Source: Spiroplasma endosymbiont of Danaus chrysippus
Lineage (GTDB): Bacteria > Bacillota_I > Bacilli_A > Mycoplasmatales > VBWQ01
Reading direction: 5' to 3'
DNA: 33,561 nt
NCBI RefSeq assembly: GCF_902809815.1
Contig: NZ_CADDIL010000006.1
Span: 91,912 to 125,472, forward strand
This document shows positions 4,370-28,367 of the stretch, in pieces (positions within the stretch are counted from its first letter, which is position 1; each line of letters opens with the position of its first letter). The notes beneath the pieces were generated by a model. It worked only from the letters and a program-made list of their open reading frames with translations. It made no database searches and was not told where the DNA came from. A program made the translations under genes and the position numbers.

Positions 4370-4651
4370 TTATTTACCTTCATTAACTCTCTTTTTTAAT
4401 GCTTTACAAGAATTAAATTTAACTACTCGTTTTCTAGGAATAGCCATCGGTTCTGAATTTTGTGGATTTACTCCCGGTCGAGCTTTGCGGTATTTAATAG
4501 TAAAAGTTCCAAAGTTACGTAGTGTTACTTTTTCTCCTTTAATTAAAGCAGTAGCAATTTTATCTAAGATAAATTCTAACACTTCTTTGTATTCTTTTTC
4601 TGATAATTCTAATTTTTTTTGTACAGCTCGTGCTATCTGACTTTTTTGCAT
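4370..4651 (-). CDS. HU/IHF-family DNA-binding protein (93 aa)
   Basis: This is a small basic nucleoid protein that binds and bends double-stranded DNA as a dimer. The sequence shows the HU layout: two N-terminal helices (KSQIARAVQKKLELSEKEY, about residues 4-22), the LIKGEKVTLRNFGTFTIKYR beta region, and the DNA-contacting arm with conserved proline (RPGVNPQNSEPMAIPRKRVVKF), ending SCKALKKRVNEGK. The start is placed at 4651 (MQKSQ) because AAAGGG lies about 13 bases upstream and because this gives the usual family length. An ATG at 4684 would add 11 residues without a Shine-Dalgarno. It is transcribed alone, divergently from the lipoprotein gene. Confidence 0.85.
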   Translation of the reverse strand: MQKSQIARAVQKKLELSEKEYKEVLEFILDKIATALIKGEKVTLRNFGTFTIKYRKARPGVNPQNSEPMAIPRKRVVKFNSCKALKKRVNEGK

Positions 4652-4790
4652 AAAATTTTCAACCCTTTCTTCACCAATTACCATAAGTATGCTATAAAAA
4701 CATGTCTTAAATGATACTTATTATTATATAACATTTTTTAAAGAAACCTTATTTAATGAAAATCAAAGACTAGTAAAAAAATAAGATTTG

Positions 4791-4810
4791 AACATATAAA
4801 TTTATATGTT
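4791..4810. promoter_or_regulatory. perfect 20-bp palindrome upstream of the lipoprotein promoter
   Basis: AACATATAAATTTATATGTT is its own reverse complement. It ends 27 bp before the -35 box of the lipoprotein gene, and no T run follows, so it looks more like a dimeric regulator site than a terminator. Low-complexity AT DNA makes chance palindromes likelier than usual. Confidence 0.45.
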
Positions 4811-4837
4811 AATTAACAAGTGCAAAGCAAAAAAATC

Positions 4838-4866
4838 TTTACATTCATTTTTTTGTATGTTAAAAT
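4838..4866 (+). promoter_or_regulatory. promoter of the repeat lipoprotein gene
   Basis: TTTACA (4838-4843), a 17-bp spacer and TAAAAT (4861-4866) form a good sigma-A type promoter, 41 bp before the start codon at 4907. Confidence 0.6.
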
Positions 4867-4906
4867 TCAAAAAATAAGTAAATAACTATTTCGGAGGTAC
4901 TAAGAT

Positions 4907-5842
4907 ATGCAAATGAAAAATTTATTAAGACTTATGGGTGCATTAACCCTAACAACAGTAGCTACTACTTCAGTTGTAGCTTGTGGTGATCAAACTGCTA
5001 AGCAAGATATTAAAGATGTTAAAGTTGATGATCTTAAAACAGCAGTAGATAGTGAAAAAACTTTTGGTGATTTAAATACTAATAAAGAAATTACTGATGC
5101 AGTTGCAGCAGCGATTAAAAAAACAACTAAATTAGATGTTAGTGTAGGTACTGATTTTACTTTAACTAATGATAAGAAAAAAGAAGATAAACAAGTTGCT
5201 GGTGAAGTTAAATTTACAGTTACAGCACAAGGTGATAAAATTTTAGGAACATTTACATTTACAGATACTTTAACTGTTGCTAAGCAAGATATTAAAGATG
5301 TTAAAGTTGATGATCTTAAAACAGCAGTAGATAGTGAAAAAACTTTTGGTGATTTAAATACTAATAAAGAAATTACTGATGCAGTTGCAGCAGCGATTAA
5401 AAAAACAACTAAATTAGATGTTAGTGTAGGTACTGATTTTACTTTAACTAATGATAAGAAAAAAGAAGATAAACAAGTTGCTGGTGAAGTTAAATTTACA
5501 GTTACAGCACAAGGTGATAAAATTTTAGGAACATTTACATTTACAGATACTTTAACTGTTGCTAAGCAAGATATTAAAGATGTTAAAGTTGATGATCTTA
5601 AAACAGCAGTAGATAGTGAAAAAACTTTTGGTGATTTAAATACTAATAAAGAAATTACTGATGCAGTTGCAGCAGCGATTAAAAAAACAACTAAATTAGA
5701 TGTTAGTGTAGGTACTGATTTTACTTTAACTAATGATAAGAAAAAAGAAGATAAACAAGTTGCTGGTGAAGTTAAATTTACAGTTACAGCACAAGGTGAT
5801 AAAATTTTAGGAACATTTACATTTACAGATACTATTGAATAA
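4907..5842 (+). CDS. spiralin-like surface lipoprotein with three identical repeats (311 aa)
   Basis: A membrane-anchored surface lipoprotein. The N-terminus is a lipoprotein signal peptide: basic MQMKNLLRL, a hydrophobic stretch, and the lipobox SVVAC with the lipidated Cys at residue 26. After a GDQT linker come three tandem 94-residue units starting AKQDIKDVKVDDLKTA and ending FTFTDTLTV; the last is closed by a short TIE tail. Each unit combines a predicted helix (EITDAVAAAIKKTTKLDV) with beta segments, in the style of spiralin domains. A strong GGAGGT lies 8 bases before ATG 4907; Met3 is a less likely start. It is not spiralin itself, which in S. citri lies next to tsf. Host contact or immune-variable coat roles are inference. 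Confidence 0.85.
   Translation: MQMKNLLRLMGALTLTTVATTSVVACGDQTAKQDIKDVKVDDLKTAVDSEKTFGDLNTNKEITDAVAAAIKKTTKLDVSVGTDFTLTNDKKKEDKQVAGEVKFTVTAQGDKILGTFTFTDTLTVAKQDIKDVKVDDLKTAVDSEKTFGDLNTNKEITDAVAAAIKKTTKLDVSVGTDFTLTNDKKKEDKQVAGEVKFTVTAQGDKILGTFTFTDTLTVAKQDIKDVKVDDLKTAVDSEKTFGDLNTNKEITDAVAAAIKKTTKLDVSVGTDFTLTNDKKKEDKQVAGEVKFTVTAQGDKILGTFTFTDTIE
4997..5829 (+). repeat. three tandem 282-bp units in the lipoprotein gene
   Basis: Units start at 4997, 5279 and 5561, exactly 282 bp (94 codons) apart. Read side by side they are identical at the nucleotide level, including silent positions, until the third unit diverges at its last few codons (after ACAGATACT). This points to a very recent duplication or to ongoing homogenisation. 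Confidence 0.9.
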
Positions 5843-5863
5843 ATAATTAATATATATTAATTT

Positions 5864-5896
5864 AAAATGACATAATTTAAATTGTGTCATTTTTTT
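5864..5896 (+). terminator. terminator after the lipoprotein gene
   Basis: AAAATGACA (5864-5872) pairs with TGTCATTTT (5885-5893) and runs into a T stretch, 22 bp after the stop codon. Confidence 0.8.
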
Positions 5897-6028: not shown

Positions 6029-6448
6029 ATGCCAACAATGAACCAACTATTACGTAAAGGACGTACAGATAAAAAATACAAATCTAAATCACCAGCGTTA
6101 AATGTTTCATATAATTCATTAACAAAAACAACTTCTTCAATTAGCAGTCCGCAAAAAAAAGGTGTAGCGCTTGTAGTTACTACAAGAACACCAAAAAAGC
6201 CTAACTCAGCTTTAAGAAAAATTGTTCGTGCTCGTTTAACTAACGGTATGGAAGTTACTGCTTATATTTCTGGAGAAGGTCATAATTTGCAAGAACATGC
6301 TATTGTTGGAATCCGTGGTGGGAGAGTTAAAGACTTACCTGGAGTTAGATACCATGTTATTCGTGGGTATTCTGATACTGCCGGAGTAGTAAATCGTAAT
6401 CAAGGTCGTTCTAAATACGGAACTAAAAAACCAAAATATAAGAAATAA
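6029..6448 (+). CDS. rpsL: 30S ribosomal protein S12 (139 aa)
   Basis: S12 is in the decoding centre of the small subunit and controls translational accuracy. The sequence has the family hallmarks: N-terminal [11 protein letters not shown], the [12 protein letters not shown] loop whose lysines contact the decoding site and are classic streptomycin-resistance positions, and [32 protein letters not shown] near residues 84-115. Unusual local changes precede [15 protein letters not shown] in place of the common GVCTRVYTT. The start is set by AAAGGAGG about 10 bases upstream. It is the first gene of rpsL-rpsG-fusA, 14 bp before rpsG. Confidence 0.97.
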
Positions 6449-16510: not shown

Positions 16511-16560
16511 TTATATTTCTAAATTTATATAAGAAATATTCTCATTGTATTTATCAAATA
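16511..16560 (-). pseudogene. severed 3' end of the structural gene at 17924-19930
   Basis: Read on the minus strand, this stretch continues the frame of the gene beyond the IS256 insertion: ..LFD then KYNENISYINLEI and TAA at 16511-16513. The 8-bp ATCAAATA at 16553-16560 is the target duplication. These codons are no longer translated with their gene. Confidence 0.8.
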
Positions 16561-17935
16561 GAGGCTTTTTAGTAATCTGTGTTTCTTTGTTTTACAAAGT
16601 ACTAGTTCAGATTAATTCTGTCTTCAAATTTTATCATAAAATGAGCAATTGCTGTATTTCAATTTTGAATAGGCAATGTTCATTTTTTTGTGATATTTTC
16701 AATTGCTAAGTAAAAAATTTTAAAAACTGCCATATCATTAGGAAAAACTTTTTTATTTCTAATAACTTTTCGTAATTGGATATTAACAGATTCAATAGCA
16801 TTTGTAGTATAAATTACCCTTTTAATTTCTGCTGGATAACTAATAAAAACCATTAAATTTTCTCAATTTTTATATCAAGATTTAGCAATTTGTGGATATT
16901 GTTTATTTCATTTACTTTCAAATTATTCTAAAGCTTGCATTGCTTGTTCTTCACTACATGCTGTATAAATTGGCTTTAAATCGATAACTAGAGACTTTCG
17001 ATGTTTGTATGAAACATATTTTAAGCTATTTCTAATTTGATGAACTATGCATAATTGATGTTCAGTTTTAGGATAAACTGATTGTATTGCCTCTGACATG
17101 CCTGTTAAATTATCACTACAAGCAATAAGAATATCATTTAAGCCTCGATTTTTCATTTCTGTAAAATTATTTAATCAGAATTTAGCACCTTCATTTTCAC
17201 TAATTCATAAACCTAAAACATCTTTTTTACCTTCTAAATCAACTCCTAAAGCTATATAAACTGATTTGTTAATAATACGTTTATCCTGACGTACTTTAAC
17301 TACGATACAATCAAAATAAATGATTGGATAAACACTATCTAATGGACGATTTTGCCATGCTTTGACATCATCAATGACATCATCAGTAATTTGACTAATT
17401 ACGCTTTCGCTAATATCTGCGCCATGATATAACTCTTGCAACTGCATTCTAATATCTGATAAAGTCATACCTTTTGCATATAGTGAAAGAACTTGTTGAT
17501 CAAAACCATCAAATCTTCTCTGTCTTTTTGTGATTATTACTGGTTCAAAATTACTATTGCGATCTCTTGGTACATCAATTTCAATTTTACCTTGTTGAGT
17601 TATTAATTTTTTTGATGTTGTACCATTACGAACATTGTCATTATTACTGCGTTGATTTCTTTCGTGTCCTAAATAATTTTGCATCTCAGAATTCAACATT
17701 TTTTCTACCAATCGTTTAGTTAATTCTTTATATAAGCCTCCCTCTTTAAAAACTGTTGTTAAATCCTCAGTATTTTCTAATAATAAATCTACTGCTTTTG
17801 ATATTGGATCATTGTTATTAAGATTATCTTTTTTAGCCATCTGTAACTCACTCTTTCTAGATATATAAATTATATTTACTAGAATTAATTAAACATAGTT
17901 ATTTTTGTAAGTCACACAGATTACTAAACATTCCC
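16561..17935 (-). mobile_element. IS256-family insertion sequence, 1375 bp, with 8-bp target duplication
   Basis: The ends are related 22-bp inverted repeats sharing TTTAGTAATCTGTGT: the left begins GAGGCTTTTTAG at 16561, and the right, reverse-complemented, begins GGGAATGTTTAG at 17935. ATCAAATA flanks both sides (16553-16560 and 17936-17943), a fresh 8-bp duplication as expected for IS256. It carries one transposase gene with a premature stop. Related fragments occur at 656-1019 (5' part) and 20613-20731 (3' end). Confidence 0.9.
16602..17840 (-). pseudogene. IS256-family (Mutator-type) transposase with a nonsense codon
   Basis: Code-4 reading from MAKKDNLNNNDP (17840) to the TAG at 16602-16604 gives 412 codons, the normal family size. 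The DDE catalytic set is visible: YFDCIVVKVRQ, ACSDNLTGMSEAI and [13 protein letters not shown] at 16923-16925 (codon 306, ALE-stop-FESKWNKQ) interrupts it between the second Asp and the Glu, so the protein is truncated before its last catalytic residue. An Asn, Lys, Glu or Gln codon with one change would restore it. The sequence is otherwise undamaged, so the loss is recent. Other copies would be needed for transposition in trans. Confidence 0.88.
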
Positions 17936-19930: not shown

Positions 19931-20994
19931 TGTTTTCTCCTATTAATTGGTTATTTTCGGGATTAAATAATTTTAGTTTAACTGTTAAATTATTAATTTC
20001 TTGTTCATCATTAATATTAAATGTTTTACTATTTAATAAATCTTTATCAATTCTCACTAATATTTGAATAAATTTAAGAATATCAATATTAAATTGTCAT
20101 AATTTTTGTTCAATATAATTAATAGTTGAAATATTTACTGCTGTACTTTCGGGAACTGATTGTTGTGCAGATTTCTTTTGACTTGGTATATGAATACCAC
20201 AACGTTTAAATATTTCATTAACATTTCAATCGTATATATCAGTTAAATTTTTACCTTTAAAATTACTATTTGTCATATTGATATTTTCATTTTGTTCATT
20301 ATTATCTCCGCCACTTTTAAATATGTAGTTTTTAGTAACCAAAGTTCTTACTGCTTCTTCTAATGCTGATTGAACATTACCATAAGTTTGACTAAATATA
20401 AATTTAGGTGAATTTAAAATGGTATCTAAAACAATTTGTTCATAAATAACATCTAATGCTTTAATTTTATCCATTACTTTATCACAATCTGCTAATTCAT
20501 TTGCTTTATTTCGCATAATTGCTATTGGTATATAATTAATATTTAGTGTTTGTTCTTGTAATAGATTAGGATTATTAATAAATGAGTTAAAATCTAATGG
20601 AAATTGGTTTTTACATTGCCTATTCAAAATTGAAATACAGCAATTGCTCATTTTATGATAAAATTTGAAGACAGAATTAATCTGAACTAGTACTTTGTAA
20701 AACAAAGAAACACAGATTACTAAAAAGCCTCTTTCAATTTTTTCTATAAAATTCTTGTTGAATTAAATATTGTTTAATAGTTTCATTATTAATTTCTAAT
20801 GGAGCATTATATAAATTAGCATTATTTTCTGCTACAAAATCAGTAAAATAAGTTTCATGATTAAAATCATTAAAACCAAAATAATTTAAAATTGAAGCAT
20901 GTGTACTTTTATTTTTATTAGTTAAAAATTTTACTTTTTCATTTTGATTATCACTAATATTACTTTTTTCTTTTCTTTTAAATAGACTTAACAT
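19872..20994 (-). pseudogene. phage structural gene split by an IS256 scar
   Basis: The 5' part starts at 20994 (MLSLFKRKEKS, with AGGTGGTGA about 10 bases upstream) and encodes about 87 native residues ending IQQEFYRKN. It then reads into IS256 sequence and stops at 20677. The 3' part resumes as KNQFPLDFNSFINN and ends at 19872 with a Gln/Thr/Glu-rich tail. An IS-derived ATG at 20651 could start a 259-residue product, but without a ribosome binding site. A portal or connector identity is conceivable from gene order, but no motif was recognised. The original junction was probably YRKNWKNQFPL, so little or no phage coding sequence was lost. Confidence 0.65.
20613..20731 (+). mobile_element. 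119-bp IS256 end fragment inside a phage gene
   Basis: The reverse complement of this stretch matches 16561-16679 without a visible difference: the GAGGC terminus, the inverted repeat and the last codons of the transposase. It lies in the opposite orientation to the full copy. The inner edge diverges after AGGCAATGT and there is no second end and no target duplication, so it is a deletion remnant. Confidence 0.88.
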
Positions 20995-26201: not shown

Positions 26202-26378
26202 ATGGTAGCAGCAGCACTTAAAAAACATGAAGATAAATTATTAATTAAAAATTTAAAAATTCGTCTTACTAAAAATGACCATTATGAATTAAAAACATAT
26301 TGTTATGAAAGAAATATAACTATGAATGATTTTGTAAGGGATTTAATAAAAAATGCAATTAAACAATCAAAAAAATAA
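26202..26378 (+). CDS. ribbon-helix-helix protein, Arc/CopG-like (58 aa)
   Basis: After a short basic lead comes a strand (KNLKIRLTKNDHYEL) and two helices (ELKTYCYERNITMNDFVRDLIKNAIK), the layout of ribbon-helix-helix DNA-binding proteins, which act as dimers with the strand in the major groove. At 58 residues it fits a stand-alone phage repressor or a nuclease cofactor. Its gene overlaps the exonuclease gene by 26 bp. A natural hypothesis is that it binds the TACGTA palindromes at 24668-24778; this is untested. Confidence 0.6.
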   Translation: MVAAALKKHEDKLLIKNLKIRLTKNDHYELKTYCYERNITMNDFVRDLIKNAIKQSKK

Positions 26379-27009
26379 TTTAATTTTTAAAAAAGAAACA
26401 CATCAATATTTTATAAATAAAAAAGAATTAATATCAGTAAGTAAAATACTTGATTATTATTTAGGTAATTCATATTGTAAATGTAATAAATGTAAACATT
26501 GTTTTAATATTCATAATGCAAGAATTCGTGGTAATTTTGTTCATAAAGTAGCAGAATTATATTTTAAAAATATAAATATTAAAAATATAACTAATCAAAT
26601 TAAAAATTATATTAAAGATTTATTTTCACAAAATTATTTAAATTATTGTTATACATTATTAGATTATTTACCTACTAAATTTATTAATACTAATGAATAT
26701 ATTAGTGAAAAAATGTTTAATGCAGATATAGTTGCTGGAACACCAGATTTAATTTATAAAGAAAATAATTTAAATATAATAGTAGATTTTAAAACTTATA
26801 AAGTTTTTACTAAAGAATTATTAGAAAAATCAAAATTACAAATAATAGCATATTATTGATTATTAAAAAATAATAATTATGAATTATCAAATACTCATTT
26901 TATATGTTGAGTTAAAGAAAATGAAATTGAATTAATAAAAGTTGAAATAACAAATGAATTATTAATTGAATGAGAAAAAGCAATTTGAACATGAAAGGAA
27001 TTAAAATAA
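26353..27009 (+). CDS. PD-(D/E)XK exonuclease, RecE/RecB-like, with a Cys cluster (218 aa)
   Basis: A phage-type DNA exonuclease that would resect ends for the RecT annealase next door. Motifs in order: G60 with H64 and E68 (RGNFVHKVAELYF), Asp132 in AGTPDLIY, the catalytic VDFKTYK (Asp145, Lys147) and Q163 with Tyr167 in the QxxxY motif (LQIIAYYW). Unusually, four cysteines are packed together at residues 42-50 (CKCNKCKHC), suggesting a bound metal. The 4Fe-4S cysteines of AddB/Cas4 are spaced quite differently, so zinc is the simpler guess. RecT starts 2 bp after the stop. A TGA-Trp splits it in the standard code. Confidence 0.75.
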
Positions 27010-27010
27010 A

Positions 27011-27817
27011 ATGGCAAATGAATTATTAGTGAAAAATATTAATAATGGTAATGTAGAAAAATTTATTAGACAAAAAGGTATTGTTAATAATTTAGAAATA
27101 CAAAAATTTAAAAGTAATGTATTAGCAATTTCAAATCAATATGGTTTAGATAAAGCATATCCAGATACTATTATTAATAGTTGTTATCAAGCAGTATTAT
27201 TGAATTTACCATTAGAAAAGAATTTTGGTTATTGTTATATTGTACCTTATTGAGATAGTAATACTAAAGTAAATAATGCTCAATTTCAAATGGGATATAA
27301 AGGTTATATTCAATTAGCATTACGTAGTCAACAATATAAAGAAATTAATGTTAGTGATGTTAGATTAACAGAAATTAAAAAAGTAGATAGACTAAAGGGA
27401 ATTGAATTTAATTGAATACAAGAGGATTTAGAAAGATTAAAACAACCAATTATTGGTTATGTAGCATATTTTCAATTAGTAAATGGTTTTGAAAAAACTT
27501 TATATATGTCAAAAGAACAAATTGAAAAACATTTTTTAAAATATTCAAAAACTTATGCAAAAAATAAAGAATTTATTGTTAGTGATTTTGATAGTATGGC
27601 ATTAAAAACTGTACTTACTCAATTATTAAGAAAATGGGGAATTATGAGTACTGAAATGCAAATTGCATATGAAAGTGACCAAGCAATTATTACTGAAAAT
27701 GAAAAAATATATATTGATAATCCAAATACTAATAATGTAATTGAAAATAATACGAATTTTCAACAATTAGAAGAAAATATTGAAAAATTGGATAAAGTGG
27801 TATTTAAAAATGACTAA
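27011..27817 (+). CDS. recT: RecT-family single-strand annealing protein (268 aa)
   Basis: RecT coats single-stranded DNA left by the partner exonuclease and anneals complementary strands in phage recombination. Family features: the N-terminal lead to LAISNQYGLDKAYPDTIINS, then SCYQAVLLNLPLEKNFGYCYIVPYWD, the core FQMGYKGYIQLALRSQQYKEINVSDVR and the later segment MALKTVLTQLLRKWGIMS. The length is normal. The C-terminal 50 residues are Asn/Glu-rich and probably flexible. It lies directly after the exonuclease and overlaps the RuvC-like gene by 8 bp, so all three are likely made together. Confidence 0.9.
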
Positions 27818-28367
27818 TTATTTACTTTCAATTGACCCAAGTATAAAAAATACAGGATTTACTTTATGAGAAAAAAGATGTCATGTAATAGATTGCGAAA
27901 ATAATAATTGTATTGAAATAAAACTATGAATTCCGATATGAATTAAAAGTTTTAATTTTAAAAAACAATATGATTTTCATAAAGAAATAAAATGACAAAT
28001 TCATGATTTAATTGAAATTACAAGAAAAATTAGTAGATTTAATTTTGTTATTGAACGTGGGACTTTTCATAGTAAAAATGGTATTGGTTATGAAACACAA
28101 GAACATTTACGTGGTTTTATTGCTGGACAATTTAATAAATTAATAACAAAAGATATGTTAATAAGTCCAAAAGAATGACAAAATTGATATTTAAAAAAAT
28201 ATTTTAATGAATTAGAAAATAAAAAAATGTGAAATGATAAAGAAATATCTTTTAGTTTTGCATTGAGATTAATAGCAGAAAATAATTGAAATATAACAAT
28301 ATCAAATCATGATGAAGCAGATAGTTTATTAATTGGTTGATATTATTTAAATAAGGAGAATAAATAA
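27810..28367 (+). CDS. RuvC-like Holliday junction resolvase (185 aa)
   Basis: The four acidic residues of the RuvC/RNase-H fold are visible: Asp9 in LLSIDPSIKNTGFTLW, Glu82 in FVIERGTF, and Asp168 and Asp171 in NHDEADSLLIGWYYL. Spacing and length suit phage resolvases of the RuvC/Ydc2-like group, which cut branched DNA before packaging or in recombination. The ATG overlaps the end of recT. Many Trp are TGA. Its last codons (NKENK-stop) carry the ribosome binding site of the next gene in a TAATG overlap. It could also serve as a debranching nuclease. Confidence 0.8.

Follow-up and report, generated by a model that had tools for sequence, protein, structure and literature searches.

Spiralin is the most abundant membrane lipoprotein of Spiroplasma citri, a lectin that binds insect glycoproteins and is needed for efficient transmission (PMC4804543). 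As the main surface lectin it also helps this species to colonise insects. Spiralin repeat-containing lipoproteins, in which a lipoprotein or secreted leader is followed by two to six spiralin domains, occur in S. chrysopicola DF-1 and S. syrphidicola EA-1, with genomes of 1,123,322 and 1,107,344 bp (PMC4607517), and on S. citri plasmids, where the three-unit protein is encoded without tandem identity at the DNA level. In the tsetse symbiont sGff, spiralin-derived copies with one and two repeats have been reported (PMC12408004), and cochineal S. ixodetis strains have been reported without spiralin genes (PMC8025503). The MBA of Ureaplasma joins a conserved anchor to one of several unlike tandem-repeat bodies, with units of 252–336 bp in about 2–6 copies (PMC3511179).

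Spiralin arrays that are homogeneous and built of lineage-specific units recur in Spiroplasma; there are 5 copies of 300 bp at 99% in S. chrysopicola (G533), 2.9 copies of 291 bp at 99% in G539 and 2 copies of 297 bp at 95% in G142. The sister species S. chrysopicola and S. syrphidicola share a locus at which the leader and first unit are 95.4% identical in DNA and are followed by five copies of one unit in the former and four copies of another in the latter. As proteins, these two kinds of unit have 46.9% identity, while the array units of S. chrysopicola differ from one another at 0–10 of 294 nt.

The window analysed here, a stretch of 33,561 nucleotides, comes from the Spiroplasma of the butterfly Danaus chrysippus, an ixodetis-clade male-killer (PMC10232968, Table 1) whose assembled genome comprises 1,745,430 bp in 12 contigs. 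Its lipoprotein gene reads as a single-gene unit, with an HU-family gene on the opposite strand on one side and rpsL-rpsG-fusA-tuf on the other. The features of the locus, compared with the relatives S. ixodetis SHM and G002, are as follows.

4370..4684, minus strand: HU-family DNA-binding protein gene, the upstream synteny anchor (PF00216, 5e-28; 99.7% identity to G002)
4838..4866, plus strand: putative promoter TTTACA-17-TAAAAT, conserved in S. ixodetis SHM and G002, although such matches in the region are not above chance
4893..4897, plus strand: ribosome-binding site GGAGG, read from the sequence and conserved in S. ixodetis SHM and G002
4907..5842, plus strand: whole gene for a 311-aa spiralin-repeat lipoprotein, an ATG-started ORF with PF05215 and NF038028 above cut-off
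4907..4995, plus strand: constant leader with signal peptide and lipobox (Cys26 codon at 4982-4984), ending at the 5′ swap boundary
4996..5277, plus strand: spiralin unit 1, 94 aa, from repeat finding and base-by-base comparison
5278..5559, plus strand: spiralin unit 2, 94 aa, the same as unit 1
5560..5841, plus strand: spiralin unit 3, whose first 274 nt (to 5833) equal those of unit 1
5843..5863, plus strand: 3′ swap boundary zone; against G002, about 64% identity over 36 nt from the stop, then 98.7%
5864..5893, plus strand: terminator-like hairpin followed by a T-run (fold -11.6 kcal/mol, z -4.8), common to S. ixodetis SHM and G002
6029..6448, plus strand: rpsL, the downstream synteny anchor

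A strict terminator scan listed none at the 5864..5893 hairpin. Promoter-like matches inside the units (5213, 5495 and 5777) were dropped, as 8 such matches were found against 9.4 expected.

Tandem Repeats Finder places the array at 4996-5833 with a period of 282, 3.0 copies, 100% matches and a score of 1676, while the second-ranking array in the window scores only 77. Chance is excluded as its origin. An earlier note, made from the letters of this DNA, had located the array correctly to within a few bases and had described it as a mollicute lipoprotein gene of three in-frame units of 94 residues, which is borne out. Its statement that the units are nucleotide-identical holds in full for units 1 and 2, which show 0 differences over 282 nt in a base-by-base comparison; unit 3 agrees with them for 274 nt until it reaches the stop codon, and 7 of its last 8 nt differ.

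What the earlier reading missed is the identity of the units. Each 94-aa unit is a spiralin repeat, matched by the PF05215 and NF038028 profiles. PF05215 gives E 1.3e-19 and 70.9 bits against a cut-off of 25, and NF038028 gives 199.8 bits against a cut-off of 45 in three stretches, which places the protein in that family. The gene also begins, as NF038028 proteins do, with a Mollicutes lipoprotein signal peptide and lipobox: NF038029 matches residues 3-26, at 19.0 bits in one comparison and at 23.8-24 bits, level with its cut-off, in another, and VVAC with Cys26 is present in the sequence. Surface exposure would follow from this lipobox. NF038030, the profile of spiralin proper, reaches 187 bits against a cut-off of 140, a score raised by repetition, as the match runs mainly via the C-terminal domain of spiralin (best stretch, profile positions 137-238 of 239); a full-length NF038030 match that includes the N-terminal half was not found in the window gene. 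The mature protein is thus a string of near-identical spiralin domains on a membrane-anchored lipoprotein. No other canonical spiralin-repeat locus is present in this genome; the second-best spiralin match, at 29 bits, lies in a 591-aa ORF that starts with a membrane segment instead of a lipobox. Weak matches to other families (DUF3858, L6e and others) were treated as noise inflated by repetition. AlphaFold2 models built from single sequences, for the window unit (pLDDT 62.7) and for the unrelated SHM unit described below (56.4), suggested a helix and beta-strands and were too uncertain to compare. A Foldseek search of the predicted window unit against the PDB gave no match below E 0.5, and a PDB sequence search with the unit gave no credible match.

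The HU-to-rpsL interval was read in the genome of the window and in five others of the genus, and rpsL is present in all six. Flanking genes are about 98.5–99.8% identical between the window and G002, S. ixodetis SHM (G001; NZ_AP026933.1, 2,102,039 bp) and G005. Against G002, fusA is 98.8% and HU 99.7% identical, and the stretch from HU to the leader is 97.4% identical although the bodies beyond it differ. The leader is kept in G002, SHM and G005, as is the terminator where compared. The window and G002 cease to match at GATCAAACTG, shortly past the lipobox cysteine, and identity resumes about 20 nt past the stop. Between these points, G002 has, behind the same promoter region and leader, an additional N-terminal domain and then three units of 285 bp with another sequence, which differ from one another by one base, in unit 1 only. 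S. ixodetis SHM carries the same N-terminal domain and a single 285-bp unit (about 4690-5340 of the extracted locus), whose reading frame is lost through an additional A in a poly-A tract; this could be a phase-off state, decay or a sequencing error. In G005, the copy of the 285 type is broken by insertion sequences. Over unit 1 and the N-terminal domain only, the 285 bodies of G002 and SHM show 5 non-synonymous and 0 synonymous differences, too small a number to argue for positive selection.

The 282-bp unit of the window and the 285-bp unit have no relationship detectable by phmmer or hhalign (probability 0.1%), and the spiralin models do not recognise the 285-bp unit. In the window, the spiralin unit begins right at the end of the leader, and nothing of a 285-type body is left between them. 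The outgroup G003 holds pieces related to the 285 type at this locus, and the outgroup G004 holds a body related to that of G003, its direct comparison with the 285 unit being weak (E 0.003). Because these outgroups carry diverged forms of the 285-type unit, the spiralin body of the window is probably a newcomer and the derived form at the locus. The earlier note had expected changes of length by whole units. This gains support from the one-unit allele of SHM, with the other unit type, and from the differing unit numbers in the orthologous arrays of S. chrysopicola and S. syrphidicola, but a focus on unit number was incomplete, as the type of unit also differs between strains at the same locus.

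There is no local stock of ALTERNATIVES: the window unit occurs nowhere else in its own genome at comparable identity, and the 285-bp unit was not found anywhere in the Danaus symbiont genome. No donor of the spiralin-type body was found in that genome or in the genus, the nearest units, from other Spiroplasma, being about 45–54% identical. A paralogous lipoprotein on contig 3 (C3:116893; locus extract from about 3885) shares its leader with the window gene (86.7% over 105 nt) and has an unrelated body; leader-sharing with unlike bodies therefore occurs within one genome too. On contig 1 of G002, near 558.7 kb, a protein with an N-terminal membrane segment carries an array of three 306-bp units at 97%, and repeated bodies are thus not confined to the HU/rpsL locus.

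The array can be dated only loosely. Between the window and G002, fusA has 21 synonymous differences in 463 sites (4.5%); at that age about 2.7 silent differences per pair of units are expected, and none of the roughly 60 synonymous sites per unit has changed between units 1 and 2. The array would thus be younger than the window/G002 split, as a loose bound, in support of the recent origin or homogenisation that the earlier note had proposed.

In the genome that carries the array, recA is broken: about 61 codons in, it is interrupted by an IS3-family copy (C1:159189-159371 and downstream) with the same transposase as at 1058-2104 of the window. The remainder of recA was not found in the genome. 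S. ixodetis SHM gave no recA match, and in G002 the gene is in three pieces. The Danaus symbiont genome, which lacks an intact recA, holds 16 RecT-family matches, that at 27011-27817 of the window among them; G004 holds 14 together with an intact recA, so the RecT count alone does not track recA loss. The RecT match of the window belongs to the following module.

26353..28367, plus strand: prophage recombination genes for a PD-(D/E)XK exonuclease, RecT and a RuvC-like resolvase (PF03837 3.6e-45, PF12705 6e-6, phrog_159 1.4e-7)

This module is candidate RecA-independent machinery that may be tied to the array. As recA is broken here and RecT-family genes are abundant, RecA-independent copying is probable, with RecT-type annealing or plain replication slippage as the likelier agents. 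The recA break may itself be younger than the array. The module is carried by a prophage-like element at 12035-33496, in which a PHROGs search gave no match for three large proteins and one 568-aa protein. The window also contains a perfect 120-nt inverted repeat (16560-16679 and 20613-20732, with 3,933 nt between the arms), one arm of which adjoins pieces of IS256 transposase, and broken IS256-family transposase pieces at 626-1022 and 16602-17840 that are about 97–99% identical where they overlap.

Taken together, these comparisons are best explained, with a probability of roughly 70% for the explanation as a whole, by replacement of the body within a fixed shell, followed by tandem amplification. 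The promoter region, ribosome-binding site, signal peptide with lipobox, and terminator would constitute the shell, and the body would be its exchangeable part. A spiralin-type unit would have taken the place of a body of 285-bp units, from the leader's end to the terminator; that strains differ here is observed, while the direction of the change comes from the outgroups. Recombination in the leader and in the terminator would account for the exchange, one spiralin unit would then have been multiplied in tandem, and slippage or unequal annealing, probably independent of RecA, would keep the copies homogeneous. The likely outcome is a change of surface and of glycoprotein binding between lineages, not rapid antigenic switching within a host.

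Part of the pattern might have arisen in the assembly, which was built from short reads only with SPAdes plus Redundans (PMC7046192). Some of its joins consist of a single N with duplicated ends of about 150-157 bp on either side; one such join directly precedes base 1 of the window, and another adjoins a different lipoprotein array. That array, in another lipoprotein on contig 1 near 70.3 kb, comprises 4.9 copies of 123 bp at 98%, and its copy number is doubtful because a single-N join with duplicated ends adjoins it. Since short reads cannot span three identical 282-bp units, the copy number and exact identity of the window array may likewise be a product of collapse or consensus; three exact copies are plausible, but neither the count nor the perfect identity is secure, and the worry about assembly that the earlier note had voiced was justified. 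We nonetheless consider it somewhat unlikely that the true gene has fewer, more or differing units that were merged during assembly. Against the short-read method and the duplicated contig ends stand the array at 4996-5833, which is free of N, the homogeneous spiralin arrays of the single-contig genomes S. chrysopicola, S. syrphidicola (G542) and G539, and the homogeneous 285-bp array of the single-contig G002; a wrong count would, moreover, leave the different body unexplained.

The two kinds of unit could also have stood side by side in an ancestral gene, each lineage amplifying one and losing the other with no import. Mixed bodies do exist, as the extra N-terminal domain ahead of the units in the 285-type protein demonstrates, and a mixed ancestor would be expected to lead to what S. 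chrysopicola and S. syrphidicola show, a first unit common to both with unlike arrays behind it. However, no ixodetis-clade genome seen holds both types together, spiralin-type units are absent from all five congeners, outgroups included, and the leader of the window joins the spiralin unit with nothing of the 285 type between them, all of which makes such differential loss improbable. An active contingency locus, varying the surface by frequent gain and loss of units within one host or by gene switching, would fit the unit numbers, which vary between strains (3, 3 and 1) and between the sister species, the SHM allele thrown out of frame in its poly-A tract, and the precedent of the Ureaplasma MBA, whose size varies in vivo (PMC3637154). 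We think this unlikely, since the SHM frameshift has other readings, as noted above, and little diversity has been published for infected butterflies (pi 0.0005; PMC7046192), although SNP counts of that kind would miss arrays. Insects, moreover, make no antibodies, and the antigenic variation that the earlier note had suggested therefore fits poorly with this host; given that the spiralin of S. citri binds insect glycoproteins as a lectin (PMC4804543), it is more plausible that adhesion or lectin activity varies.

Replacement of the body within a fixed shell remains the reading we prefer, and by analogy with S. citri spiralin the window protein may be a lectin, its lipid-anchored row of spiralin domains most likely forming a binding coat. 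One ixodetis-clade male-killer thus carries a repeat-only form of spiralin, though cochineal strains of the same clade have been reported without spiralin (PMC8025503), and in close relatives the same promoter region and signal peptide precede bodies of quite another kind. More tentatively, and with doubt, we suggest that such loci may be modular in general, a promoter-leader-terminator shell swapping whole bodies between lineages and RecA-independent amplification of a phage type (RecT) then building strain-specific coats in recA-defective symbionts. If this holds generally, strains with core genes about 99% alike could be told apart by a compact marker, and their differences in host or tissue would have a cause that can be tested. 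A further question is how, in the absence of RecA, the arrays remain homogeneous.

The locus resembles the MBA system in that a conserved lipoprotein anchor bears unlike tandem-repeat bodies in different strains, and its unit length is similar to that of the long MBA units. MBA itself has alternative bodies kept beside the locus, a 25-nt recombinase site and a XerC gene. Here, the genome holds no second copy of either unit type; the 25-nt site has 0 matches in the window with up to 3 mismatches, another site sequence being conceivable; and there is no site-specific recombinase gene among the neighbours HU, MATE-like transporter, IS3 transposase, rpsL, rpsG and fusA. We do not class the locus as MBA-type, since no stock of bodies, no 25-nt site within the window and no neighbouring recombinase accompany it. 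With the spiralin (spi) of S. citri and S. poulsonii, the window gene has in common the lipoprotein anchor and a homologous C-terminal domain; the N-terminal half of spi is unmatched, and the C-terminal domain alone is matched, three times. The closest likeness is to the spiralin repeat-containing lipoproteins of S. chrysopicola DF-1, S. syrphidicola EA-1 and the S. citri plasmids, to which the window gene belongs: the leader-then-domains layout is the same, and some of their arrays are also nearly identical in DNA, so that homogeneous arrays are already known as a kind. Its units are only about 45–54% identical to known spiralin-repeat units and, unlike the known cases, the array lies in an ixodetis-clade strain, at an HU/rpsL locus where relatives hold another body. 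The new part is this turnover of the body, at the level of strains, within a fixed shell.
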